Source: Diplonema papillatum
Taxonomy: Eukaryota; Euglenozoa; Diplonemea; Diplonemida; Diplonemidae
Length of the DNA: 64,000 nucleotides
NCBI GenBank assembly: GCA_030068145.1
Contig: JAPJBO010000220.1
Span: 1 to 64,000, forward strand
Reading direction: 5' to 3'
Shown: piece by piece, positions 3,690 through 58,894 of the stretch
How the letters are laid out: the number at the start of each line of letters is the position of its first letter
Numbering within the stretch: the stretch's first letter is position 1
Notes under the pieces: model-generated
The model's database searches: none
What the model was told of the DNA's origin: nothing
What the model saw: only the letters and a program-made list of their open reading frames with translations
Translations under genes and position numbers: made by a program

Positions 3690-3710
3690 CCCCCCCCCCC
3701 CCCCCCCCCC

Positions 3711-4766
3711 GGTACTTCTCTGAATTTCCGGGGGTTCCTGAAGGAGTTCTTGACGTACTTCGTCCTACTGGTAAGCTCGCGCTCGGGGAGGAGCCAGCTC
3801 AGCCAAGACAGCCGAAGGATAGGGGCTGAAACAATCCTCGCCATGCTCCCAATGTTCTGCGATGCGCGACAGCACGACGCGCACGAGGCTTTGGTTGCAA
3901 TTCTGGATAGGACAGACAGCTCCCTAGGGCCGGACGAGACGACGGAGGCTTGTCCGGATTGGCGGCTTTTCCAGACGTGCCTGGAAAACACGATGACGAC
4001 AACAACACGATGTATCGCCTGTGGCGCCACATCCACCCGTCATCAACTGGTACGGTGTCTTCAAGTCCCTCGTGGAAGGCCGGTGGAGGACGCATTCTGT
4101 GTTCGTGGAATTATGAATCCGGAGAGGAGGTGTGACTGCGGAGCTGCTGGATCCGTTGTGGAGACCATGAACGTGCATGTGGCGTCCGAGTGCCTGCTGT
4201 TGCAGTTCGGCATTTACGCAAGCGATGGTGCGAGACTACGGAATGACGCTTCCCTACCGCTCCTCCTGCGACTGCCGGACGGCACACTACGCCTTTCCGC
4301 GGTGGTTGTACACACGGGACAAAATACGACAAGCGGCCATTTTGTCACATACGTCTTGCAAGGGATGCAATGGACGCTTTTCGATGACGAACGAGTCTTG
4401 CACGTCGACAACGTTCCTTGGACTGACATATACCTCGCCGCATACGTACGAATCCCCAATGCGTCCCACGAGGTGGTCGAACGCTTGCCATCACCTACTA
4501 TGATGGCAACAACAGTCCCACCGCAGGTCCCGCTGATACCTTCTAGTCCGCCCTGTACCGACGCGAATCTGGAATCTTGCCAACCCATGCCCTCCGACGC
4601 CGCTTTGGCAGCACACGACCAGCCACCTGAACAGCCCAAGGACCCCCCGGAACTGCGCTGCAAGCGCTGCTTCACCGACCGCACCAAGGACGGTCGATTG
4701 TTCCGGGGCCTCAGAGGCCTGCATGTGCACGAACGTCTCTGCACGTACGTCAACTTCGGGGAGTGA
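3711..4766 (+). pseudogene. 5'-truncated USP (C19) protease of a retroelement, copy 1
   Basis: The frame encodes the C-terminal two thirds of a ubiquitin-specific protease. Visible are the CDARQHDAHEAL block typical of the USP palm, a CIACG half zinc knuckle, the catalytic-His box SGHFVTYV and the Asp box LFDDERV. The catalytic-Cys box is absent: homology to the copy at 55.5 kb starts at NFRGF, downstream of the NTCFLG motif there, immediately after a 21-C tract. The protein ends in a CCHC-like finger, CKRC then H-x4-C (about 4651-4740). The reading frame is otherwise open. The truncation on the 5' side with an intact 3' region fits target-primed retrotransposition. An open frame runs upstream through the C tract but has no ATG and no homology. 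Function today: probably none. Confidence 0.85.
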
Positions 4767-5425
4767 TGTATGCCCTGCGGAACAGCCGGAATCTCGGCCT
4801 AGCGGGGCTGAGTTCAGGTACGGTGCCCACTGTAAATAAGAGGACGCATTGCTGAAGTGCTGCGTCGGCGACGTTTGCTTTTCGTGCCGCGTCTGATGAC
4901 GACCTGCCGACTTGCGTTTAATGTACTGGAGGTTCGTTAAAGACCGCCTGGCCGTGTGCTAGGCGTAGTTTAAGGTTGTACTGATCTACAAACAACCACT
5001 TACGAGCTTGTCAACCCCACCGATTTTCTATCTTCTTTCCCCCTCCCCCTTTTCGACGTTGCTGTTGACTAACGGTTAGGTCGGACCCTTCCCCGGTGAA
5101 CATCCCATGAAAGTAACAGTGTTGACTTAGACCGATACGGGCTACATGGCAACCCCTGCTCAACATGTATGCACGTGGGGGGCCCAGGGCCACATTCATT
5201 GCGAATGTGTTCGTGGTGTCGGTCGCAGAAGTCTTTTGTTTTGGCTAGCCAAAGAGAGAAAAAGAGCGAAAGAGTACGTACAGTAGTGAGTAGAGAAGAG
5301 AACGAGTGTAAAAGAAAGGAGGTAGCACAGACTACCAGGCCAGCGGAGACCACCGCAAAAAGAAAAATTTTCTTTCCCCTACTTCATCCCACAAAACCAT
5401 CACCAACAACAACGACCCCCCCCCC
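4767..5425 (+). mobile_element. 3' non-coding region of USP retroelement, copy 1
   Basis: About 0.66 kb downstream of the USP stop codon is repeated almost identically at 9024-9670 and more distantly at 57835-58190. The block gtgctaggcgtagtttaagg and the block acgggctacatggcaac are conserved in all three copies. This identifies it as the 3' end of the element rather than host DNA. It ends near acaacaacaacg and a 10-C tract (5416-5425). Confidence 0.85.
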
Positions 5426-5432
5426 GGTACTT

Positions 5433-5621
5433 CACGACACACTAGTAAGGTACATAACTTGTGAAAATAACTAGTTATTTTATAACTAGTTATATTTGAT
5501 AACTTGTGACTAGCACGAGCTAGTTATATAACTAGCTCGTGCTAGTTATATAACTAGCTTGTGCTAGTTATATAACTAGCTCTGCTAGTTATATAACTAG
5601 CTCTGCTAGTTATATAACTAG
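5433..5621 (+). repeat. left terminal inverted repeat with five 16-bp palindromes
   Basis: Perfect palindromes ctagttatataactag start at 5520, 5542, 5564, 5585 and 5606, giving steps of 22, 22, 21 and 21 bp. The spacers are ctcgtg, cttgtg, ctctg and ctctg. The outer part (5433-5519) is less regular but also rich in actagt and taactagtta. The right end at 8658-8833 has the mirror arrangement. Confidence 0.9.
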
Positions 5622-5626
5622 CTCCT

Positions 5627-6090
5627 AGGGTATTTTACGGGTGAAATGCATTGAAATACACCATCACTAAACAGCTACCACAGCTCGAAAGACACAAAAT
5701 AACAAGAAAACAGCAGCCTCGCAGGGAATGTGCCAGCAGGACCAAGAAGGGAAGTGTGTTGTTACAAACTGAGGCCGTGGAAAATCAGAATGTTCCACAC
5801 GATACTTCGTCTGATGCACTCCTATGAATGTGTGGACGCAGAAACTCTGCGGGCACATGGGAACTAACTGCCGAGAACCGGGCGCGACTGGGACTATCAC
5901 TCAACGCATGCGCAGAGCGGATACGGATCGTGAAGGAAGAAACTGGGTTGCTATGCGCCGAGGCTGCCGCATCGTGGCTCCTATTATGCAAATTCTCTCA
6001 CTTGTAACTTGCTCCTCATGGTATTTTACGGAGAAATGCACTGAAATACTGCCCACTGAACGGCGACCACAGCTGATATACACGAAAAAT
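5627..6090 (+). pseudogene. duplicated leader and N-terminal fragment of the zinc-finger gene
   Basis: 5824-5975 is a degraded copy of 7447-7600, the start of the C2H2 gene, recognisable from gacgcagaaact, actatcactcaacgc and gtgaaggaagaaactggg. It is out of frame and has internal deletions. The leader at 5632-5690 (ggtattttacggg, tgaaatgcattgaaatac) is duplicated at 6018-6078, just before the gene at 6095. The left arm has thus gained a second promoter-like leader and a broken partial gene. Confidence 0.75.
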
Positions 6091-6094
6091 CAAA

Positions 6095-7126
6095 ATGAGC
6101 AAGCGCGCACGTGAGACAAAGGCGAAGACACCCGAGAAGAAGAAGCAGAAGTCCGGCGACTTGGAGCCGGACGCGAATGCCAAGACGGACGCGAACATCG
6201 TGGAAGACTTCGTGGAGTTGTTTTTGATGGTAAAGGAGGGAGAGGAGGTCCAACACGTGCCTTTGAAGGCACTGGTGGGACAGCTTTTTGGTCTCTCGTT
6301 GTCAACGAAGAATGGCATCCTCGGCAAGGCTATTGCCGCAAAGTTTCCTGCGCTCAAGGCGCTGAAAAACCAGACCCAAACAATTGGCTCAAAACTCTAT
6401 TCGCTGCGGGTGAAAATGAACACCGACTTGGTGTTCCGCGGTGTCGGGCTCCGCAAAAAGCTGACGGCCACGGCGAAGGACTCGGAGGCGTACCACCGAT
6501 TGAAGGCGGCTACGGTAGGCGATGTCAACCTGGAAACGGTTGACTTGCCGTCCTTATACAAGTGCAAGACGGCATCGGGGGCTATTACTCCCGCTGCTGC
6601 TGTCACAGGGACTCGCAGAAACAAGTGGCCGGACATCACTGTCCTGGGGAGGAAACAGGTGCGCGAAGAGGGTGTGGACGTCACCTACTTCTGCATCGTT
6701 ATCGAAAGTGGGTGCAGTGTCGTGTCGACTGTGCACCCACCGACGCTGACAGGCAACCGGCTGGATTTCACGTTTCTTCGTGAACGTCCGTCGGAGCACT
6801 GTGAGGCTGGTTTGTACACCGGAAGCTACACCCTCCCTCCAGACGTCATGATCGACAGTGTCCGGCCCCTGCAGGTCCGGGGGGCTAGCGGGGGATTTGC
6901 AACCTTTGTGAACTTTCCCCTGTCGAGGAAGAAACATAGCGTGAGCCTGCAGCCCGGTGACTGGCGCAGCAATCCAGATGTCGTGGGGCTTTTCTCCGAC
7001 TCGGGGGACGACGCTGATGGCATCGAGGATGAGGACGACGACGACAAAGACTCTCAAATCAAAGCCGACGTGGAGGATGATCCTGATGCCAGCGACAATG
7101 AGAGCGTGACGTTTGTTCCCAACTGA
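6095..7126 (+). CDS. transposon protein A, unknown function (343 aa)
   Basis: I do not recognise the family. The protein starts at an ATG in a favourable context (caaaATGA). It opens with a strongly basic segment, KRARETKAKTPEKKKQK (residues 3-19), which looks like a nuclear localisation signal. A predicted globular part of about 280 residues follows, with no obvious zinc ligands or membrane segments. It ends in an acidic low-complexity tail of Asp and Glu runs (about residues 300-335). The gene lies inside the palindrome-array inverted repeats, in tandem with the zinc-finger gene 321 bp downstream. It is intact, with no frameshift or stop. By position it is a candidate recombinase or DNA-binding partner; that is inference only. 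Confidence 0.7.
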   Translation: MSKRARETKAKTPEKKKQKSGDLEPDANAKTDANIVEDFVELFLMVKEGEEVQHVPLKALVGQLFGLSLSTKNGILGKAIAAKFPALKALKNQTQTIGSKLYSLRVKMNTDLVFRGVGLRKKLTATAKDSEAYHRLKAATVGDVNLETVDLPSLYKCKTASGAITPAAAVTGTRRNKWPDITVLGRKQVREEGVDVTYFCIVIESGCSVVSTVHPPTLTGNRLDFTFLRERPSEHCEAGLYTGSYTLPPDVMIDSVRPLQVRGASGGFATFVNFPLSRKKHSVSLQPGDWRSNPDVVGLFSDSGDDADGIEDEDDDDKDSQIKADVEDDPDASDNESVTFVPN

Positions 7127-7447
7127 AAACCTTTTTGTTTTTGCAGCACCAAAATCAGATCATCCTTTTTATTTTGTACTCCGTTTTTTGAGCAAACCAA
7201 GGTACAGGCACATCACATACCGGTAAGCAACATTGACACTTTGCGGGTTACGTAAGCAACTTTTAAAACTTCGCTGGTCACAACAGTTTTTGATGAGTAG
7301 GATGCGGTCTTCCAGGTTCCTCGTAGGGAAGTGTCGAACGAGGAAGGAAATTTATTGTTAGAACCAGACCATGGATACCACTTGAAATCTTCCGCAGGAC
7401 AAAAAAAATACTCCATTCTTTCCTGGCCAGCTTACACTCTTAAGAAG

Positions 7448-8392
7448 ATGGACGCAGAAACTGTGCGGGCAATTGGGAAGATAATAGCCGAGAACCGGAC
7501 GCGATTGGGACTATCACTCAACGCTTGCGCAGAACTTGGACGGATAGTGAAGGAAGAAACTGGGATTGCGATGGGGCTGTCGCAATCGGTCGTGGCCAAG
7601 GCCGGCGAAGACTTCAAGCTGATGGCAGGTAGGGCCCTGGGGAATATCGCGGAATCCCTCCAGTTTTTATTGCGCAAATTTCCGTTCAAGACGTGTAGGG
7701 AGGCTCCCTCCGTGATTATATTCATGGACGCGTACAACACGGGGAATGCCTTTCGCTCTCGGAGCTCCAGGCAGCGGCTGGCCATCTCCCTCTCGGCTGG
7801 GAGGACTGCGACACGCTTTCTTACAGTTTGTGACAAGCGAAAGCCGCAGTTCCACGAATGGTGGATATTCAACGCCTTGCCGCAGCTGACGCAGATTCAG
7901 ACGGGCAGTTTCAGCAAAGGGAAGCACGCAGCCTCTGTACAGCTGTTTCGCTTCGGCGGGGATCATGCGGAGCTGTGGTCGCTGTTCAGTGGTGTTGGCG
8001 GTTCTGGCCATCGTAGTGCGTTTTGTACGACGGCTGCCGGTGACTGGCTAGAGCAACTGCACGCCTGCGAGAGGCTCAGCCTGCAAGAGATGCATGCAGC
8101 CGGCTATACATGCCACATCGCGCAACGGTTCCTGCAACCGTGCTTCACGATGACCCCGGCCCTGCACGACGTGAAAGGGATGATACGCCTCATTCAGCAC
8201 CGCCCTGCCGTGACATGTGAGTGCAAGGAAGACTGTCCCGCCTGTGCGAAGTCTGTACTAAAACGTGGCTTGAGCCAACATATCTTGTACAACCATGCAA
8301 GTCTACTGACAAAGACGAAGTGTCCTCTGTGTCTTGAGAGCTTTTCCTCCGCAAGACTAAGAGACTCGCACATGAAGAAACGCCATCTGTGA
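7448..8392 (+). CDS. transposon protein B, two C-terminal C2H2 fingers (314 aa)
   Basis: The start is the ATG of MDAETVRAIG; the frame is open further upstream but without ATG. The first 60 residues form a helical, possibly helix-turn-helix region, because the same segment is preserved as a fragment at 5824-5975. The middle (about 90-250) contains IIFMDAYNTG and EWWIFNALP but matches no family I know. The C terminus has two classical fingers: C-P-A-C with H-x4-H about 12 residues on (near residues 264-283), and C-P-L-C with the same spacing (near residues 292-313). Fingers at the C terminus suggest recognition of a repeated DNA target, plausibly the terminal palindromes. Whether this or protein A is the catalytic subunit cannot be told from sequence. 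Confidence 0.75.
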   Translation: MDAETVRAIGKIIAENRTRLGLSLNACAELGRIVKEETGIAMGLSQSVVAKAGEDFKLMAGRALGNIAESLQFLLRKFPFKTCREAPSVIIFMDAYNTGNAFRSRSSRQRLAISLSAGRTATRFLTVCDKRKPQFHEWWIFNALPQLTQIQTGSFSKGKHAASVQLFRFGGDHAELWSLFSGVGGSGHRSAFCTTAAGDWLEQLHACERLSLQEMHAAGYTCHIAQRFLQPCFTMTPALHDVKGMIRLIQHRPAVTCECKEDCPACAKSVLKRGLSQHILYNHASLLTKTKCPLCLESFSSARLRDSHMKKRHL

Positions 8393-8657: not shown

Positions 8658-8833
8658 CTAGTTATATAACTAGCAGAGCTAGTTATATAACTAGCAGAGC
8701 TAGTCATATAACTAGCAGAGCTAGTTATATAACTAGCACGAGCTAGTTATATAACTAGCTCGTGCTAGTTATAAATTTCACTAGTCATTGAGCTAGTTAA
8801 TAACTAGCAAAACTCCATAACTAGTGCGTCGTG
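8658..8833 (-). repeat. right terminal inverted repeat with palindrome array
   Basis: Palindromes start at 8658, 8679, 8700 (one variant base, tagtcatat), 8721 and 8743, in steps of 21, 21, 21 and 22 bp, with a partial sixth at 8765. Spacers are cagag and cacgag, the reverse complements of those on the left. The outer part (8770-8833) contains actagtcattgagctagtta and ends in actagtgcgtcgtg. The same outer sequence recurs at 55228-55300. Confidence 0.9.
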
Positions 8834-9670
8834 TTGCCAACCCTTGCCCCCCGACGCCGCTTTGGCAGCACACGACCAGCCACCTGAACAGCCCAAGGAC
8901 CCCCCGGAACTGCGCTGCAAGCGCTGCTTCACCGACCGCGCCAAGGACGGTCGATTGTTCCGGGGCCTCAGAGGCCTGCGCGTGCACGAACGTCTCTGCA
9001 CGTACGTCAACTTCGGGGAGTGATGTATGCCCTGCGGAACAGCCGGAATCTCGGCCTAGCGGGGCTGAGTTCAGGTACGGTGCCCACTGTAAATAAGAGG
9101 ACGCATTGCTGAAGTGCTGCGTCGGCGAAGTTTGCTTTTCGTGCCGCGTCTGATGACGACCTGCCGACTTGCGTTTAATGTACTGGAGGTTCGTTAAAGA
9201 CCGCCTGGCCGTGTGCTAGGCGTAGTTTAAGGTTGTACTGATCTACAAACAACCACTTACGAGCTTGTCAACCCCACCGATTTTCTATCTTCTTTCCCCC
9301 TCCCCCTTTTCGACGTTGCTGTTGACTAACGGTTAGGTCGGACCCTTTCCCGGTGAACATCCCATGAAAGTAACAGTGTTGACTTAGACCGATACGGGCT
9401 ACATGGCAACCCCTGCTCAACATGTATGCACGTGGGGGGCCCAGGGCCACATTCATTGCGAATGTGTTCGTGGTGTCGGTCGCAGAAGTCTTTTGTTTTC
9501 GCTAGCCAAAGAGAGAAAAAGAGCGAAAGAGTACGTACAGTAGTGAGTAGAGAAGAGAACGAGTGTAAAAGAAAGGAGGTAGCACGGACTACCAGGCCAG
9601 CGGAGACCACCGCAAAAAGAAGTTTTCTTTCCCTACTTCATCCCACAAAACCAGCACCAACAACAACGGC
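8834..9670 (+). mobile_element. 5'-truncated USP retroelement, copy 2
   Basis: This is a near-identical duplicate of 4577-5415: the last 64 or so codons of the USP frame (linker plus the CCHC-like finger, stop at 9021-9023) and the whole 3' non-coding region. It starts abruptly at the right edge of the DNA transposon. The few differences from copy 1 indicate a recent origin. It encodes no catalytic residues. Confidence 0.85.
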
Positions 9671-9787
9671 CCCCCAAAGTTGCCACCGTAAAAAGAAGAC
9701 AAGTCAGTGCTGCCTAGCGAGTCGCAGTCACAATCAGGGCGAGTGCCCTGAGTTTTTTAACTGATTGCTCAGACACGGTTGTAGGGG
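9671..9787. other. short spacer
   Basis: This is the sequence between the retroelement end and the next dispersed repeat. It contains an 8-bp hairpin-like cagggcgagtgccctg. No gene is seen. Confidence 0.5.
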
Positions 9788-10329: not shown

Positions 10330-10385
10330 AGTGCATGCTAATCCATGTGGTTCATGTACTTAAAAGAACTCAATGCTAAACGAAC
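10330..10385 (+). repeat. 56-bp direct repeat, left copy
   Basis: It begins agtgcatgctaatccatg and ends caatgctaaacgaac. It is identical to 15394-15449, and the flanking bases differ on both sides. It is preceded by gctaaacgaa, a partial copy of its own end. Confidence 0.95.
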
Positions 10386-10406
10386 CCTGGTCCCGGCCGC
10401 ACGGAG

Positions 10407-13400
10407 ATGAAGTTCGCGACGCTCAACGTGACTAGCATGCTGCAGTACATCCTAGCGGTTAACGCGGTGGAAGCCGATCTTCTCTGCTGCCAGGAGGTCA
10501 CACTCCTTCGATGCAAACGGGCACAGGCGGAGGAATACCTGCGGAATTGGTGCTGCCACTGGGGTCCGCCACCTCCCGGGAGACTCTGTAGAAGCTCCGG
10601 TAGTCGCTCGACGACGAACGCTGCGAACGGGGGACTCTCCACCCTAGTACAGAGGCCGATACCGGCGTACGACACGATGGCAGCGCTCTCGCACGTGGCG
10701 GTACGGTCCCCGGACCGGGTGAGCCATACTGTAGTCGCAACAGGGACCGGCAGCACCTTCGTGCACGTGTTCAATGTCTACTGCCCATCAGGAAACGGGA
10801 GGGCGGAGAACGAGGAACGTGAGGACATGCTGGAGAAGGTCCTCTTTGCGGCGGCGGACAGCCTCGGCGACGTCCCCATACTGGTGATGGGAGACCTCAA
10901 CACAGAAGAAGATCGGTCCCCTGTTCTGCGGAAGGCACTTAGGAACGGATGGTCCGACGCAGCGGAACTGCACCATGCGCGCACCGGAAACACGCCACCG
11001 CCACCGACCTTTACCAGCGCCCGGACGTCAGGCACGAGGATCGACCGCATACTCCTCAACCGCATAGCGGCGTGTGCCTTCCGTCAATGCGTCACCACCG
11101 CGGTGAACGTACCGGGACACCGGCTCGTGACAGTGACCCTGGATATTGCAGCGCTGCGCCAAAGCGTGTGGCGATTTAAGGTGCCGCGGGAAATCCCGAC
11201 AGAGGGGGGATCCAAGTGGGACCTCTCGGACGCAGAAGCCGACAGGGAAGCCGTACAGAGACTGGCCAACTCCGAATTCGCGGAACGGTTGGCAGCGCAG
11301 CGGGTGGAAGAGGCCTGGCTCGAGTGGTCACGAGTCAGTGAGCAGTATTTGCAGGATGCGTTCGCAGTCCCTGTGGAAGAGAGAGGAAGGGGTTCCGGCC
11401 GGGGGATGAAGACATTGCCGAGGAGGGTCTGTGTCACGGCGGGCACTGCGACCGACGGGTCGGGGGCAGCAAACAGCAGGCAACTACGGCTCAGAAAGGC
11501 CATCCACCGGATGGAACGCATCTGCAGCTACCTCGCGCAACGTCGCGGGCCGGAAGCTGTTCCACATGAGGTGTCCCTCTGCTGGCAGAACTGCAAGCGG
11601 CTGGCACAAGCGTGCATGGAGGGCGACCAAGGCGCAGGGGGGTTTCCGGATCATGAGAAGGCGAAACAGCTGCTCACAGCGTTGCGGGAGGAGACGAGTA
11701 GGCTCGGAAGAGAAGGATCTGCGGCCAGGTTTACGAAGTACCGAGACAAGCTGAACGAGAGGGCGGACGCGAGCAGACGATGTCTAGCGACCGTCTGCGC
11801 CGGTCGCGCTGAGCCGTCGGGTGTGTTGCGCACCGGAGCGAAGATGACTGCAAATGTGGACGAGATGGACGAGGTGTTGCACACTGCGTGGGACGCTATC
11901 CTGCGTAAATACAAGGACCGGCCAGAGCCGGAGTACGGACCGTTTCGGGATCGGTTCCAGGAGCACATCGACACACACTTGATGGAACCCGGGACGATCA
12001 CGGGGGAGGAGCTGCGGACTCTGCTAAGGAAGAAGCCGAAGAAAAGCGCGTCAGGCGTGGATGGCTGGCGCATGGCTGAACTGCGGGAGTTGCCGCTTCC
12101 CCTGCTGAATGCGCTAGCGGATGTCATGAACCTGGTCGAAGTGACTGGGGTTTGGCCGGCGAGCATGACAACTGCCCTGGTGTCGATGGTGCCGAAGGAT
12201 GAGAGCCAAGACCCGCTGCACACGAGGCCAATAACCGTCACGTCCGCTGTGTACCGCCTATGGGCGTGCCGCAGGCTTGCGGACATAGTCCTGTGGCAGG
12301 AGAAGTGGATCGAAGAAGGACAGAAGGGCTTTCGACCGGGTCACCGTATCGAGGACGTCCTGATGGAGATAGGGCTCGAGATGGAGGACGCCTTGCTAGA
12401 TGGAGAGCCGCTCTACGGGGTGGCGCTGGACTTCCGGAAATGTTTCGACATGGTCCCGCGAGAGATAGTGCTGCGCCTGGCCGGGGACTTAGGGTTGCAC
12501 AATCGGGTTCTCAAGCCGCTGAGGGCGATCTACAGACTGCTCGCGAGACGCTTCAAGCTGCCTCTAGGGGTGGGCAGGGAGTTTAGTGTGACCAATGGTA
12601 TCCTTCAAGGGTGCCCTGTATCCGTCATCCTCATCAATGCCCTGCTGTCGGTAGTGATGAAGGCGGTCAAGAAAGAAGCGGAGGGGGTGAGCCCAAAGTC
12701 GTACGCGGACGATGCCACGCTGCTATCGCGGCTGTCGGAGGCCGCCCTGCAAAAGGGGGTGGACGTGGTAGACGAGTTCTGCACGCTCACCGGAATGGAG
12801 CTGAACCTCCAGAAAACGGTCGCCTTCTCGACGAGACGTAGGCATCAGTCGACGCTCAGACTCCGCAGCGTGGATGCGCTGCTGCGGTTTGGCAAATCTG
12901 TCACGTGCCTGGGGGCCCTAGTCTCGACGGCGAAGAATAGGACAGAAAGGTCCGACTCGGAGAGGGTGGAGAAGGCGGCTGCCCTGGCGGAAGGCCTCCG
13001 CCATGCGCCGTTCCGGTACGAGAAGCGGGTCCGGATTGTACAGTCGAATGTGCTGCCGGCGGCGCTGTCAGGCTGCTCTTTCGCGCCGGTGTCGAAGGTG
13101 GCAATGAAACGGCTGACGACGTCGGTGATGGGACTGATCTGGGGTGGGTCCAACCCAAAGCGCGCGAGGGAGATGGTCCTAAATTTTCAGGAGAAGGGCC
13201 ACCTGACGGACCCCAGTACATGCCTAGCATATAGGGTGACGACGGCGTTCTACGCGGCGTGCGAGAGGTTGCCACGACTTCTGCCTCTGATGGAGAGCAT
13301 CCGGGGAAGGTACGCCGAGGAGGACCTACCCCTGGGGCCAGTTGGACTGGCGATGAAGAGCATGGAGGAGTGTGGACACGTATGGGGACCAGGGCCCCTG

Positions 13401-15377
13401 TCTCGCACGCTGAGGAATGGTGCAATATTTGACCCGATAGCCTCGACACCCTCGAAGAGGGGGCATGAAGTGAGGGCGGATTTGAGGGCGAAGACGTGGT
13501 CCCGTCTGGTAGCGAGGCGGCCGGGATTTGAGGGTGTACAGAGAGCCGACTTGGAGCGGACGAACTCCTTCTGGAGGATGCGTGAATGTCCCGCGCACAC
13601 CGCGAGGCTTATACGTGTAGCGTTGGCGGGAGGAGTGAACACGGCTGAGTTCACGTCGCGGATGAGGCAGGCCGGAGCTGAGCCGCAGGCGCCCAGCTGC
13701 AAGCACTGTGGAAGCGGCGACACCGAGGACGAGAAACACGTATTCTGGGACTGCGGAGCGTACTCGCACATACGGCGACGAGAGGCACATGCCGAGCTGA
13801 TGGCGGCCAACCGCGCCGACTGGCCCAGATGCACGCTGGAACACGGAGTGGTAGTACCCGAGAATGCCCACTTCTCGAGGCGGCTCCAGGAGATGATGGC
13901 TGAAATCCTTGCGGAGCGGGCAGGGCTCGAAGCACGAGGCTGGGTAGCCAGGAACCCCACGACCCCCTGGTCGAGAGCGGATGCGATGCCTGCCGAGAAG
14001 CTCGACCACCCCTTTGCGCGGATTGCCCCGGCATGGGCGTGGGAGCGGAACAAGGCCTGGGGGCTACCGACGTTTTATGCGTTGGTAGCGTGGCTGTCAG
14101 ACATGGAGTGGACCGAGAACGGGCAGGCGTCAATGCTAGAGCTTGCCATCGACTTTGAACTCTTTTCAGGCCTCAGCATACCGCTGCACGAGAATGCACC
14201 GAAGGGGGTGAGGGAGCGAGGAAACGTCCTGCGCTGCATGATCAGCGCGTTGGACAAGCTGGCGACACAGCAAGGGCTGGGGAGTTGCGAGCGAGGCGAG
14301 AGAGTATGCCCGACGACGTCGCTGTCGTTCATGGGCATCACGGGGATATCGGGGGTGCGGCCCAGGCCCCGCTTTCGCGAGGCACACACGGGGACGATCC
14401 TCGAAGAGCAGGTGAAGGGAAGCGATGTAGGGACGCAGTTCCCGACGTACCCGGACTGGACGGCCGAGAGAGCGGCGAGGTGGGCCCTGCCTGCCCCACC
14501 ACAGCTGCACCCCGACCCCGTGCATATGCCGGGTGTCGGAGTAGAGAAGGCGCTCGTCACCTGCGCGACCCACCACAAGGGGAAGTGTGAGGCGTGTCGA
14601 GCACTCGTCCGAAGGGACGTGCCCACGGTAGAGATGTGCTGTCGGCACCATCACCACGCTGACGATGGGCAGCCGATCGCGGTGTGCGTGGAGCACAGCA
14701 CGACGAAATGCGGCGAGTGCAAGACGGCGGCGGCGTGCTGCCGCAGCGGGCATCATGCCTGCCGCACGCATGGCAGAGGAACCTGCCAGGAATGCAGGAG
14801 GCTCCCTACGTTGGCGCAGAGGAGACCGGCAGCGTGCTGCCGCCGCGGCCACCACCAACCCAACGAACCGAACGCCCCGGCAACCCCCGGACACAGCAAA
14901 AAGAAGAAGAGACCCCTCTCACCCACCCAGGTGGGCGTACAACGAGAAACACCGGCGGGAAAGCGCGCGGCGCAGGCACCGCCCGCCGTGGTGAAGCAGA
15001 AGACGGCGACGACCGGACGGGCGGCCAAGAGGCCGCCACCAACGCCAGGGACCGGCGAACGACCAGCGTTGAAGAAGAGGGTGCTCGGCACCCCGAAGGA
15101 GAGCCCGATCGCCGGCCGCAAGCGGAAGAAGGCGAAGGCGACCACACCCGAGTCAGGGGTGCAACGAAAAAAGAGGAAGGCCCTTAAAGCAAGCAGCTAC
15201 CAGAAACGTCCGACGTCCCCAAGCACTCCAGTGCCCTCGAGAGTGAAAAACGTGCAAGCCTGTCCGCACCTGTGCCCCCCCACGCAATCTCCAGAACCGC
15301 AAGAAAGCCCAGCGCCCCTGGCGCCACAAGTACTCGACCTTGACGACGCAATGACAGGTGACGACGTCATAAAGTAA
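10407..15377 (+). CDS. retrotransposon polyprotein: AP-like endonuclease and reverse transcriptase (1656 aa)
   Basis: The single protein drives target-primed reverse transcription. Residues 1-240 are an AP-endonuclease-like domain with FATLNVTSM, the catalytic CCQEV, GDLNTEE, GTRIDRILLN and the terminal GHR motif. The RT lies at about residues 540-900: GFRPGHRIEDV, motif A ALDFRKCFDMVP (near 674), GILQGCPVSVIL and the catalytic SYADDATLL (near 765). A zinc-binding CKHCGSGD...HVFWDC motif (near 1100) follows, as in other non-LTR enzymes. The C terminus is unusual: three repeats of C-x2-H-x4-C-x2-C with CCR-x2-HH blocks (about 1386-1480), then a long basic Pro/Lys-rich tail. The LDFRKCFD and ILQGCPVSVIL signatures resemble elements I know from dinoflagellates. 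No RNase H domain is evident. There are no stops or frameshifts. Confidence 0.93.
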   Translation: MKFATLNVTSMLQYILAVNAVEADLLCCQEVTLLRCKRAQAEEYLRNWCCHWGPPPPGRLCRSSGSRSTTNAANGGLSTLVQRPIPAYDTMAALSHVAVRSPDRVSHTVVATGTGSTFVHVFNVYCPSGNGRAENEEREDMLEKVLFAAADSLGDVPILVMGDLNTEEDRSPVLRKALRNGWSDAAELHHARTGNTPPPPTFTSARTSGTRIDRILLNRIAACAFRQCVTTAVNVPGHRLVTVTLDIAALRQSVWRFKVPREIPTEGGSKWDLSDAEADREAVQRLANSEFAERLAAQRVEEAWLEWSRVSEQYLQDAFAVPVEERGRGSGRGMKTLPRRVCVTAGTATDGSGAANSRQLRLRKAIHRMERICSYLAQRRGPEAVPHEVSLCWQNCKRLAQACMEGDQGAGGFPDHEKAKQLLTALREETSRLGREGSAARFTKYRDKLNERADASRRCLATVCAGRAEPSGVLRTGAKMTANVDEMDEVLHTAWDAILRKYKDRPEPEYGPFRDRFQEHIDTHLMEPGTITGEELRTLLRKKPKKSASGVDGWRMAELRELPLPLLNALADVMNLVEVTGVWPASMTTALVSMVPKDESQDPLHTRPITVTSAVYRLWACRRLADIVLWQEKWIEEGQKGFRPGHRIEDVLMEIGLEMEDALLDGEPLYGVALDFRKCFDMVPREIVLRLAGDLGLHNRVLKPLRAIYRLLARRFKLPLGVGREFSVTNGILQGCPVSVILINALLSVVMKAVKKEAEGVSPKSYADDATLLSRLSEAALQKGVDVVDEFCTLTGMELNLQKTVAFSTRRRHQSTLRLRSVDALLRFGKSVTCLGALVSTAKNRTERSDSERVEKAAALAEGLRHAPFRYEKRVRIVQSNVLPAALSGCSFAPVSKVAMKRLTTSVMGLIWGGSNPKRAREMVLNFQEKGHLTDPSTCLAYRVTTAFYAACERLPRLLPLMESIRGRYAEEDLPLGPVGLAMKSMEECGHVWGPGPLSRTLRNGAIFDPIASTPSKRGHEVRADLRAKTWSRLVARRPGFEGVQRADLERTNSFWRMRECPAHTARLIRVALAGGVNTAEFTSRMRQAGAEPQAPSCKHCGSGDTEDEKHVFWDCGAYSHIRRREAHAELMAANRADWPRCTLEHGVVVPENAHFSRRLQEMMAEILAERAGLEARGWVARNPTTPWSRADAMPAEKLDHPFARIAPAWAWERNKAWGLPTFYALVAWLSDMEWTENGQASMLELAIDFELFSGLSIPLHENAPKGVRERGNVLRCMISALDKLATQQGLGSCERGERVCPTTSLSFMGITGISGVRPRPRFREAHTGTILEEQVKGSDVGTQFPTYPDWTAERAARWALPAPPQLHPDPVHMPGVGVEKALVTCATHHKGKCEACRALVRRDVPTVEMCCRHHHHADDGQPIAVCVEHSTTKCGECKTAAACCRSGHHACRTHGRGTCQECRRLPTLAQRRPAACCRRGHHQPNEPNAPATPGHSKKKKRPLSPTQVGVQRETPAGKRAAQAPPAVVKQKTATTGRAAKRPPPTPGTGERPALKKRVLGTPKESPIAGRKRKKAKATTPESGVQRKKRKALKASSYQKRPTSPSTPVPSRVKNVQACPHLCPPTQSPEPQESPAPLAPQVLDLDDAMTGDDVIK

Positions 15378-55090: not shown

Positions 55091-55096
55091 CAAACA

Positions 55097-55385
55097 CTTG
55101 TTATAACAAGCAATCACTTGTTATATAACAAGCAATCACTTGTTATATAACAAGTGACCACTTGTTACATCACTTGTTAGAAACATAACTAGTTATGTCC
55201 CAAAAAAAAACAGCTAACAAGTGCGTCGTGTACACGACGCACTAGTTATGGGGTTTCACTAGTTATTAACTAGCTCAATGACTAGTGAAATTTATAACTT
55301 GCTCGGACATAACTAGCAACTAGCATAAAACTAGCAGTGCTAGTTATAAAACTAGCTCTGGTCGGAACTTGCAGTTGCCCCCTTT
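55097..55385. repeat. palindrome arrays and head-to-head transposon ends
   Basis: cttgttatataacaag palindromes (55117, 55139; a 14-bp version at 55097) are spaced about 22 bp. They differ from the 5.4-kb family by matched changes in both halves. At 55223-55245 the ends gtgcgtcgtg and cacgacgcac meet around ta. The following 70 bp (actagttatgg, ctagttattaactagctc) match the right outer end of the 5433-8833 element. I see no transposon genes here. Confidence 0.85.
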
Positions 55386-55404: not shown

Positions 55405-55504
55405 CCATGAGAGGCAGTGCTCTGCCTAAACATTAAACTAAGATTTTCCCCCCATGAGCGGCAGTGTCCTGCCTAAACATTAAACTAAGTTCCCCCCCCC
55501 CCCC
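55405..55504 (+). repeat. two tandem copies of the ggcagtg/aaactaag motif with C run
   Basis: catgagaggcagtgctctgcc and catgagcggcagtgtcctgcc, each followed by taaacattaaactaag. The second ends in the 13-C run that marks the 5' truncation of the RT-USP copy. Confidence 0.8.
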
Positions 55505-55509
55505 ACCTA

Positions 55510-57705
55510 AAAGCTCTTCTGGCCTTCTGCTTGGCGAACACGTATGTACTGGTGAATGCCATCCTCATGCGGCAAATACTTGGTATCCCGATGGGTGCCA
55601 ACGCCTCTCCGGACATAGCAAACCTCTTCTGCTACGCGAAAGAGAAAAGGTACGTCATGAGACTCCTGGCCGATGGAGATATCCGGCGAGCTACGCTTCT
55701 CAGTATGACACGCCGATTCATTGACGACCTGCTGTGCTTTGGAACGAAACCCCCGTCCGAGTCCGTCTACAACATGAAGTACAAGCAGACGAACGCTTGT
55801 GTTGGGGATTCGACCTTCCTCGGTATACGGATACGACACGAAGTCTCCGATGCGTCCGGAAGAAGGTACATGCGACTTTCGGTTTTGGACAAGGCGAAAG
55901 CCTACCCATATCGCCCCCTCGCGTACACATCGGTCCTCTCGACGGCCCCGTCAAACTTCGGCTCGAGTATCCTTATCGGGGCTCTCGTACGGAACGGTAG
56001 AATCGCCAACAACCTGCATGATTTCAAGACGGAAATGAACAACACGGTGTTGAAACTCATGCGACGTGGCTACCGCAAGAGCGTGTTGAAAAGCGGGTTC
56101 CGCAAATGGCTGCTGGACACGTACCCGGAAGCTAAGTTTGGCGAACACTGCGAGAGGGTACGTGCGCATTTCTTTTGGCTTGTGCACGAGGTGGAACGTG
56201 TCTTGTCGTTGCCGGATCTGGCGGTCATGGATCAAGCGATTGAGCAGCTACTGGCCGAGAAGCCCTTCGTGAAAATCAGAGGCCGACCGCAACCCGCCCC
56301 GGAGCCTAAACAGTGCCCCCCTCAACCACCGCCGGCCGAGTCACCGACCCAGCAGGCCGAACCGACCAGCCCTTGCGAGACGACACGAAGAGGCAACAAG
56401 CGGAAAGCCGAAGAGGTCGAGCAGGTCCCAAAGAAGCGACGCCGATCGAATGTCCGTACACGGGTTCACACACATTCCCCTTTGCCCAGGCGCTGCCGAT
56501 CGATCCCCTGCACACAGCTGCCCTCTATGACACGTGACCCATCGCTATCTGGCCCCGCCGGCCTCCCGAACTTGGGTAACACGTGCTTCCTTGGTGCTGT
56601 GCTGCAGCTCCTTCTGCGTGTTGAGCCAGTGAGGGAAATGTACTATGACCTCGCGCAGGACTCTCGCAATTACCGGGGGTTTTCTGTGGACTTCTTAGCC
56701 TTCTTCGCCATGTTGGCGGGCTCGCGCGACAGTGGTGACCAACGCAGTCAGGACTGTCGAGGGATGGGTGTCCGAGCTATCCTGGACATGTTCCCGAACT
56801 TCTGCGATGCACAACAACACGATGCGCACGAAGCTCTAATGGCGATTCTTGACGCCACCGGCGCAACGTTGGGGCCAGACGAGAGTGGGACCCCCTGCCC
56901 AGGCTATCGGCCCTTCCGTGCATGTTTAGAAAACAGCTGGACCAACACTGTCCCCCAGCCAAAGCAGTGCCTGCAGATCCCTTGTGGAAGGGGACTGGAG
57001 GACTCCCTCTACACGCGCGGGTTCGTAAACCCGGAAAATGTGCGACTGCGGAGTAGGAGGGAACGTTGTTGAAACTACGGACTTCCACTTGGCGGCTGAT
57101 TGTATACTAATGCAGTTTGGCATCTATACAAGGGATGGCGGCAGACACCGGAATGATGTTGGGTTGCCATCCCTCTTGCGACTGCCGGGATGTGTGCTGT
57201 CGTGGTACACACGGGGAGTAGTACGGCAGGCGGGCACTTCACTACGTATGTCACGCGGGACGCGGGATGGATCCTCTTTGACGACTTACGGGTGACCCGC
57301 GTAGATGATATCCCGTGGGATGATGTCTACCTCGCGGCCTTTGTTCGAGACTCCGGGAGTCTCCATGATATGACCGTGCGCGCACCTTCACCTTCCATGA
57401 TGCTCCCTTCTACACGTCAGCTGCTTTGCCCACTGCTAGGGCCTTCTGCGCCCCCCACATCGGCTAGCAAAGTGGAACCGAGGCAGATACCGGGCTTCAC
57501 CCATGCCCTTGGCATCACTCCGCCGTCCTCGCCTGGTACCGCGTACACGGTCACGCACGGTCAGTTGTTTGAGCAACAATTGACGGGGTCCCCGGTACTG
57601 CGGTGTCGGCACTGCTCCATCGAGTACACCAAAGAGGGCCAGAAGTTTCAAGGGTTGAAAGGATTGCGTACACGTGAGAGGCGTCGTTTCTTCGCTAGAA
57701 AGTAA
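55510..57705 (+). pseudogene. RT-USP fusion retroelement, copy 3 (truncated, two frameshifts)
   Basis: The first part is the C-terminal half of a reverse transcriptase: ILGIPMGANASPDIANLF, then the catalytic RRFIDDLLCF. The GIPMG and FIDD forms recall Penelope-like and related RTs rather than the non-LTR element at 10 kb. In the same frame follows a Pro- and Lys-rich linker with a basic PKKRRR signal (about 56280-56460), then a USP: catalytic-Cys box GLPNLGNTCFLGAVLQLL, AQQHDAHEAL, and, after a frameshift near 57035 and another near 57200, the His box GGHFTTYV, LFDDLRV and the C-terminal CRHC finger. The CIACG knuckle present in copy 1 is deleted. The RT is cut at its 5' side by a C run, removing the motif A aspartate. 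No ATG is needed because the copy is truncated. Confidence 0.85.
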
Positions 57706-58261
57706 TTCTGAACCGCGTCGTCTGAACCTCTTAAGGCTCTCGGATGTTTGCGTAGCTGGATAACCCCCCCGTGACTGTCTGCCTACCTCACGGGGAACAC
57801 CATTTAGTGTGATTTGCGAGCTAGTGCACAATACTCTAAGATGATGAAGACACGCATATGCCGCCTGGCCCTGTGCTAGGCGTAGTTTAAGGTTGTACTT
57901 GTTTCATCCACGAGCTTATCCACCCACACTATCCCCCTTTCTTGTTTTTACCCCTTCCGATGTCACTGTTGACTAACGGACCGTCGGACCTTTCCCAAAG
58001 GGAACACCTGTGGAAGTAGCAATGAGGACTTGGACCGGTACGGGCTACATGGCAACTCCTGCTCAACATGTAGAACGTGGGGAGCCCTTGGTCACATTCA
58101 TTACGGGTGTGGTCGTGGTGTCGGTCGCAATAGTCGCTCTGCTAGCCATAGAGAGAGATAGAGAGAAAAAGAGCGCCAGAGAGAAAAGAAAAGATAACGT
58201 TATCTTCCGGAAAAGAAGGGTTACGCGAACCCCCGAGAAAAATAATAACCCCCCAAAAAAC
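57706..58261 (+). mobile_element. 3' non-coding region of RT-USP element, copy 3
   Basis: Alignable with 4767-5425 and 9024-9670 through gtgctaggcgtagtttaagg, gttgactaacgg, acgggctacatggcaac and ctcaacatgta. Conservation of this non-coding part across diverged copies suggests a recognition structure for the RT. Confidence 0.75.
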
Positions 58262-58348
58262 GGCCCCCCCCCCCCCCCCCCCCAAAAAAAAAAAAAAAAA
58301 AAAAGAAAACCACAAACCGACGGAGACCCCAAAGCCTTTTCCAAGGGA

Positions 58349-58379
<31 letters not shown>

Positions 58380-58780
58380 TACAGTGCAGTTGCCTTGGAG
58401 ACTGGGTGGTCGAATTCTCAAAGGTGAAATGGCAAAATGGCAAAAGTGGGCCCACAAAAAATTTTCAAAGTGTGGTTTTTGGGGTATTTGGGCCAAAAAA
58501 TATTTTTTTTTCTGACCACCCACTGTGGTGACCACCTTAGAGAGTGACAGGTAGTGTCCCCCCTCCACAGTGAAAATAGCCTGTATATAGGGGGGGGGGG
58601 GGTCAGGTCAGATTCTGCCAACGACTCCGCAATCTGGCCGCTTAGGGCCACCCCTGGGGGGGGGGGGGGGGGGTCGTTGTATAATGGTCTAGCTTGGAGG
58701 GAATTGGAAAGGTTGCAAAGTCGTTGGGGGCTCTCAGGGTAGTGTCAGCACTGCCCCCCCCCCCACACACACACACACAC
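58262..58780. repeat. homopolymer-rich low-complexity tract
   Basis: Runs of C (58265-58283, 58350-58377), A (58284-58303) and G (58590-58601, 58657-58672). An inverted tccgaccacc-type pair surrounds a gggtatttgggcc segment. Base calls here may be unreliable. There is no gene; the open frames are poly-Pro or poly-Gly artefacts. Confidence 0.7.
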
Positions 58781-58784
58781 GGTG

Positions 58785-58885
58785 CACTAGTAAAAGTGAA
58801 AAAGGTGTTTTGACTAGTCATTTTACTAGTGAAAAAGCATGACTAGTGCACTAGTAAAAACACTAGTGACAATGACTAGTGCACT
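58785..58885. repeat. actagt/gcactagt palindrome cluster
   Basis: Seven or so actagt sites in 100 bp, several as gactagtgcactagt. The composition is like the outer ends of the palindrome-array transposon, but without the 16-bp unit. It is possibly a decayed end of a related element. Confidence 0.65.
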
Positions 58886-58894
58886 AGTAGTAAG

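Follow-up and report, generated by a model that had tools for sequence, protein, structure and literature searches.

The window analysed here, positions 1-64000 of contig C220 of the genome (271 Mb, 2910 contigs) of the marine protist Diplonema papillatum, carries a frame in which a reverse transcriptase (RT) runs into a ubiquitin-specific protease (USP) of the peptidase C19 class. This frame almost certainly stems from a Penelope-like element (PLE) with an N-terminal endonuclease (EN), i. e. from a known kind of element, to which the USP appears to be a new addition. Judged from the sequences, the predicted fusion is real, mobile and under selection: an RT is covalently joined to a predicted C19 deubiquitinase (DUB) on which selection acts in several families within this genome, and the fusion is also present in a transcript that is probably derived from a second diplonemid genus. 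The original prediction had seen in the window a retroelement that copies its own USP gene; the observation is confirmed in part, and its interpretation is supported.

Searches of the host genome found intact frames with an RT upstream of a C19 domain (loci L009-L012 and L039/L040), which is the arrangement to be looked for according to the original prediction. Their order is GIY-YIG endonuclease, CxC motif, RT, linker and USP; families A and B add a C2HC finger (C-x2-C...H...C) at the C-terminus, whereas family D stops at the USP. The GIY-YIG domain lies N-terminal to the RT, with the CxC motif between them, in A, B, D3 and D4. In family A, the GIY-YIG motif reads GLIYGLVDAHANLLYIGKT; in the intact frames, the CxC stretch is CPCQRYLL..GH, and the RT motifs are DFTTMYDQL, GIPMGANASPDIANLF and RRFIDDLL. 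Pfam detected UCH (5.7e-23) and GIY-YIG (1.1e-4) on family A; the GIY-YIG scores were 22.9 bits for A (cut-off 22.6), 22.4, just below it, for B, and 28.0 for the D fragment P0071, and the core residues could be aligned. The element USP has the USP fold in a minimal domain of about 280 amino acids, and a Cys-His-Asp/Asn triad was recognized by eye in all eight aligned element USPs (A, B, D1-D4, P0069, P0070). Pfam RVT_1 had no match on A or B; the identity of the RT rests on motifs, homologs and fold, and sequence searches of PDB with RT profiles returned nothing useful.

Several features place these proteins close to Naiad and Chlamys, the N-terminal-EN PLEs reportedly described by Craig et al. 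in 2021 in Molecular Biology and Evolution (MBE). This group combines an N-terminal GIY-YIG domain, a CxC motif and an RT like that of telomerase (TERT) with tandem copies and a bias for simple repeats, and N-terminal-EN PLEs lack the hammerhead ribozyme that canonical PLEs have. The Diplonema elements share this set. Their RT is closest to telomerase RT. With regard to an insertion-in-fingers domain, a further mark of N-terminal-EN PLEs, a stretch of about 70 amino acids that may correspond to it follows RT motif 2 and precedes motif A in alignment A1, as read by eye and not from a residue-level comparison with TERT. Family D3 forms a tandem with a 5726-bp period (99.9% identity over 1333 nt, three matches at this spacing on contig C510); for D4 a tandem is indicated by spacing alone (5850 bp on C2819), and for A/B no head-to-tail copies were found in L009 and L010. 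A bias for simple-repeat insertion is evident from poly-C at most 3' ends and several 5' junctions. No hammerhead ribozyme was found in L009, L010 and L039 at E<=1, which agrees with the N-terminal-EN subgroup. The Diplonema elements differ by the C-terminal C19 USP (with the C2HC finger in A/B), which Naiad and Chlamys are not known to carry, by homopolymer-C as target and by their diplonemid host. We are nearly certain of their identity as Chlamys-like PLEs whose GIY-YIG endonuclease is N-terminal.

The USP is part of the mobile unit, as had been claimed. In 15 of the 18 fetched A/B-type loci, an RT precedes the USP on the same strand; in two of the others the contig ends within the element, and the remaining locus has a 5' truncation close to the border of RT and linker. 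In family D, all 52 scored matches reach the USP, these being the best of 1502 candidates, which favours complete copies. A search of the whole genome with the Pfam UCH profile, in which 149 of 935 candidates were scored, shows that the fusion is not a matter of chance. The ratios of nonsynonymous to synonymous substitution rates (dN/dS) indicate purifying selection on the USP in several families. Of the two outcomes that the original prediction had named as refuting it, neither was encountered: RT and USP occur together well beyond this window, and the USP is maintained by selection in more than one family.

In the window itself, the frame 55489-57072 (plus strand, 527 amino acids) encodes an RT palm with the motifs GIPMGANAS and RRFIDDLL, followed by a basic linker, and then enters the USP. 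It belongs to a third family, C, of which it covers the stretch from palm to USP; the DNA of this copy is 74% identical to B. The single frame claimed originally holds for palm, linker and Cys box, but a stop at 57070-57072 precedes the His box, which lies in another frame from about 57196; likewise, of the claimed CCHC finger there is a remnant that has lost its His/Cys ligands. This copy is dead and 5'-truncated, and the truncation has removed the GIY-YIG endonuclease of the intact members. Poly-C runs on either side mark its two ends (Table 1). The other two copies in the window indeed hold only the USP side and the 3' non-coding region and begin at different 5' points (3718-5425, 8834-9675). 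They are not, however, the same element: with 99.7% and 98.5% identity they belong to family A, with L009 as the full unit, and the 3' region supposedly common to all three copies is only 74.7% alike over 363 nt between A and the copy at 55505.

The anatomy of the copies suggests how the elements move. Most 3' ends read ACAACG(A/G) followed by a C-run of 4 to 19; the family C copy of the window ends in GGGA and C29, fragments in L016, L020 and L027 diverge immediately upstream of their C-run, and in L020, L021, L024 and L028 the main piece falls short of the 3' end. The C-run may be partly encoded by the element. Several 5' junctions abut C-runs (e. g. in L011, L012, L016, L028 and the A and C copies of the window), and others do not (L015, L017, L020, L021, L027, window 8834). 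In L011, a truncated B copy sits directly behind an A copy, in the C tract of the latter, with C(n)AGGGATGATAA on both sides of the pair. When 13 copies (leaving out L010, L018-L021 and L024-L028) were tested for target-site duplications, two had own-pair duplications with at least five non-C nucleotides (8 and 5), in addition to the L011 composite; among 156 mismatched flank pairs none exceeded four such nucleotides except two, both inside L011. Around the A copy at 8834-9675 a duplication was looked for and none was found. The 5' breakpoints vary among copies that are not cut by a contig end (B: 1019, 2027, 2694, 2898, 3273, 3371, 3699; A: 2170, 3984, 4843). Variable 5' breakpoints, C-tract ends and C-tract duplications agree with target-primed reverse transcription from poly-G ends, which we infer from the anatomy of the copies.

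Table 1. Element copies and their parts in the window
Feature	Position	Strand	Basis
Family C copy, 5'-truncated, frame-broken: RT palm and thumb, linker, USP, finger remnant, 3' untranslated region (UTR)	55505..58348	+	L010 (family B) 74% over window 55505-58344; flanking C-runs
RT domain starting just upstream of GIPMG motif, including RRFIDDLL	55505..56175	+	RT profile on residues 4-229 of frame from 55489; A1 alignment
USP N-terminal half: Cys box GLPNLGNTCF, QHDAHEA box; in frame up to stop 57070-57072	56560..57072	+	Pfam UCH 1.4e-11, residues 358-463
USP His-box and FDD region, other frame; approximate limits	57196..57350	+	three-frame translation
C-terminal C2HC finger remnant without His/Cys ligands; approximate limits	57590..57705	+	by-eye comparison with P0003/P0004 tails
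Poly-C run, 5' junction of family C copy	55492..55504	+	
Poly-C run, 3' junction of family C copy	58349..58377	+	
Family A copy, 5'-truncated (residues 1215-1562 and 3' UTR)	3718..5425	+	99.7% to L009 4454-6159; USP frame 3720-4763
Left target-site duplication C10-GGTACTTC (end of C21 run 3690-3710, then GGTACTTC)	3701..3718	+	
Right target-site duplication C10-GGTACTTC	5416..5433	+	
Family A copy, severe 5' truncation (last ~64 codons, residues 1499-1562, and 3' UTR)	8834..9675	+	98.5% to L009 5313-6155
50-nt inverted fragment, family B-type 3' end, beside G-run 58656-58673	58670..58719	-	90% to B 3' end

We suggest the following course of events. The endonuclease would nick the G strand of a poly-C/G tract, and the resulting (dG)n 3' end would pair with the C-tract at the 3' end of the RNA. 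Target-primed reverse transcription would start at the paired end and often stop early, giving rise to the 5' truncations, and template jumping or reinsertion could produce the tandems. The USP would travel with the RT and deubiquitinate the element's own RT or ribonucleoprotein particle (RNP) in cis, thus sparing it ubiquitin-dependent turnover or restriction. As a whole, this explanation, i. e. a Chlamys-like PLE group, target-primed mobility at C-tracts and a USP protecting its own RT/RNP in cis, appears likely. For the role of the USP by itself, cis-protection of the RT complex is our leading guess and a tentative one, coming close to an even chance. The sequences show the architecture, the copy numbers (as lower bounds), the truncations, the USP fold, the catalytic residues and purifying selection; activity, substrate and benefit of the predicted deubiquitinase are inferred.

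Several observations weigh against this explanation. In all seven pairs compared, dN/dS is higher for the USP than for the EN-RT part, and dS is above 1 in five of them. Target-site duplications are scarce, as described above. The structural TERT test was made on P0072 and not on A or D, and the RT tree for the GIPMG/FIDD type, which was built as originally proposed (42 rows), contains no named PLE sequence; unnamed GIY-YIG plus RT relatives are found among the protein matches of the element, none of which carries a PLE name. The environmental RT plus UCH protein P0069 is 57-60% identical to D in the RT and only 20-24% in the USP, which is no closer to D than to the others. Moreover, the environmental proteins P0016, P0022 and P0024, which group with A/B/C (100/99), have a similar finger joined to the RT by a Ser/Pro-rich linker and carry no USP, indicating that the USP is dispensable there. 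Finally, USP identity across the element groups is 0.18-0.25, similar to that between element and host USPs (21.7-24% in long alignments; 33-37% over about 100 residues of host L001), and a single old fusion is therefore not demonstrated.

Alternatively, DUBs may have been acquired convergently, the USP by independent captures in the lineages ABC, Rhynchopus-type, D and P0069 and the Josephin and OTU-like domains in others; we consider this quite possible, if with somewhat less than an even chance. The RT tree (18 of 60 proteins had been dropped beforehand, mostly short fragments or near-duplicates) separates 20 rows with C-terminal extensions from 22 labelled as lacking them by a branch of 100/99; this label is a remainder that was not checked row by row; P0048 has 86 residues after the RT, and several rows are partial. 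On this tree, the distribution of the USP requires three changes, at least two are forced by starred branches, and finger-only and OTU-like elements are interspersed among the USP-bearing rows. B' (P0005) was counted as USP-bearing; its gene model holds only the start of the USP, and B-type loci, e. g. L015, carry it. The host-level identity across groups and the position of the USP, before the finger in A/B and C-terminal in D, also speak for several captures. On the other hand, the ten element USPs form one group against eight host USPs (84/93, unstarred, long branches flagged) in a USP tree with a topology much like that of the RT tree, and the identities of RT and USP are correlated (r=0.907, Mantel p at the floor of 5e-5, driven by within-group pairs). 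From these sequences the USP could have been captured once, with losses and swaps, or several times.

In some relatives, the place of the USP seems to be taken by other ubiquitin-removing enzymes that are unrelated to it. P0075 has a Josephin domain between RT and Cys/His finger (29.7 bits when cut out, cut-off 26; 24.4 in the whole protein), although a PDB sequence search with the cut-out gave no Josephin. In P0072, a weak OTU match occupies the same position (E=9e-4, 20.1 bits, under the 23.3 cut-off), and the predicted fold is poor across this region; we therefore call it OTU-like only. It is tempting to speculate that ubiquitin removal is a core step in the life cycle of a whole branch of N-terminal-EN PLEs and that deubiquitinases of unrelated folds (USP, Josephin, OTU-like) have repeatedly been gained or swapped behind the RT, an idea to which we give a substantial, if minority, chance. 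The transcript P0070, a EukProt TRINITY entry with the prefix Rhum, contains CxC, RT and UCH (2.5e-21) and is probably from Rhynchopus humris. In the environmental P0073 (1428 amino acids), which has a related RT, a long C-terminus of Ulp1-like appearance (SWSCGYWALNY) was noted by eye, found no support in Pfam or PDB and was dropped. A scan of IMG/VR with D gave 43 pattern matches and no relatives, and the VIA matches listed comprised USPs alone for D1 and polymerases alone for P0072 and exclude nothing. One protein with GIY-YIG and RT, P0052, is filed under a Candidatus Omnitrophica metagenome-assembled genome, possibly as a eukaryotic contamination of the bin.

For the same element, the USP might instead work in trans on the target chromatin, e. 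g. by deubiquitinating histone H2A/H2B, and thereby expose the nick site or steer repair. Neighbours of the element USP in sequence and fold include USP36, USP12/46, USP21 and SAGA Ubp8, and several of these enzymes have histones or repair factors as substrates. USP folds are too similar for a substrate to be deduced from them, and we regard a role on chromatin as unlikely, even though transposon ubiquitin/SUMO proteases have been proposed to target repair factors (PMC2836005). The proposal that RT and USP are separate units, or that the USP is a functionless hitchhiking piece of a host gene, would fit the USP-side copies at 3718 and 8834 that lack an RT, but these are 5' truncations of A, and with the linkage in A/B and D loci far beyond the window and the purifying selection on the USP in several families it is very improbable.

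No fusion of RT with C19 or of a PLE with a DUB was found in the titles and abstract openings of the top-ranked matches from an open-licence library, with subscription papers and Repbase outside this scope. Within it, the claim of novelty holds for the RT, but a C19 protease as such in a mobile element is not wholly new: besides Ginger1 transposases with OTU/Ulp1, a Trichomonas transposase plus Peptidase C19 protein is mentioned (PMC2836005). Those are DNA transposases without RT. NeSL/Utopia elements likewise join a retroelement protein to a cysteine protease for ubiquitin-like modifiers; they are non-LTR (long terminal repeat) retrotransposons of the restriction-like endonuclease (RLE) type, and their protease has the Ulp1 fold and is N-terminal (PMC4640811). 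Helitrons, which are rolling-circle DNA elements, carry deubiquitinases of different classes, with VTD and OTU folds instead of C19 (PMC9741609). According to the same source, herpesviruses and Helitrons seem to profit from DUB activity, for which enzymes of different classes can serve, and the pattern of different DUBs in PLEs parallels this remark. Compared with C19 USPs such as USP46/USP12 (14-22% identity in structural rows), the element USP is minimal and resides inside a retroelement protein. Together with the Josephin and OTU-like relatives and the VTD/OTU enzymes of Helitrons, the fusion makes an earlier suggestion testable, namely that of a link between the ubiquitin system and transposition (PMC2836005, PMC9741609). 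The D. papillatum genome paper, which also reports gene replacement in this species, lists retrovirus-related, LINE-1, SLACS, R2, jockey, TATE, MULE and Helitron proteins, and neither 'Penelope' nor 'ubiquitin' occurs in its main text (PMC10161547).

The genome holds many copies, and all counts given here are lower bounds. By our reading, 112 of the 149 UCH rows, with 76.5-85.9 bits and a match that reaches position 240 of the profile, are of element type, and 31 of these rows lie in open frames of at least 1551 codons; 18 of the 112 were inspected individually. The other 37 resemble host USPs, and eight of these were fetched. With P0019 of family D as query, the 52 scored candidates, taken best first, included 34 places in frames of at least 1417 codons without flagged stops. 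A 300-bp piece of the family A 3' end scored at 40 of 2808 candidates, given as 100% identical. A protein search with the family A frame returned seven proteins, every one named Diplonema papillatum; among them, a protein of 1485 amino acids (given as 100% identical, 11 member sequences) and one of 1499 (10 member sequences) are both annotated 'putative ubiquitin carboxyl-terminal hydrolase 16'. Some Diplonema 'USP16/USP26' gene models thus belong to a retroelement, and this affects the counts of host deubiquitinases. Five further models (P0008, P0009, P0018, P0063, P0065) join element pieces to host-type proteins (RRP12, Mg/H exchanger, dynein intermediate chain, UNC93-like, STIP1-like), perhaps as annotation artefacts or through insertions in introns.

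By eye, palindromic repeats of the ACTAGTTATATAACTAG / CACTTGTTATATAACAAGTG type lie beside the element copies of the window (5450-5560, 8700-8830, 55095-55380, 58790-58890), and a short repeat GGCAGTG..CTGCCTAAACATTAAACTAAG occurs upstream of the family C copy at about 53990, 55420 and 55465. Rfam 'mir' matches in L009 fell inside a flanking palindrome and were disregarded. On the plus strand, 10380-15377 is a frame of 1665 codons of a long interspersed nuclear element (LINE) with APE-type endonuclease (1.1e-10), RVT_1 (1.6e-19) and, by eye, a Cys/His-rich tail. Between the two truncated A copies, two plus-strand open reading frames (6077-7126, 349 amino acids; 7301-8392, 363 amino acids, with a zf-Di19-like match of 1.4e-5, under its cut-off) possibly represent another mobile element.
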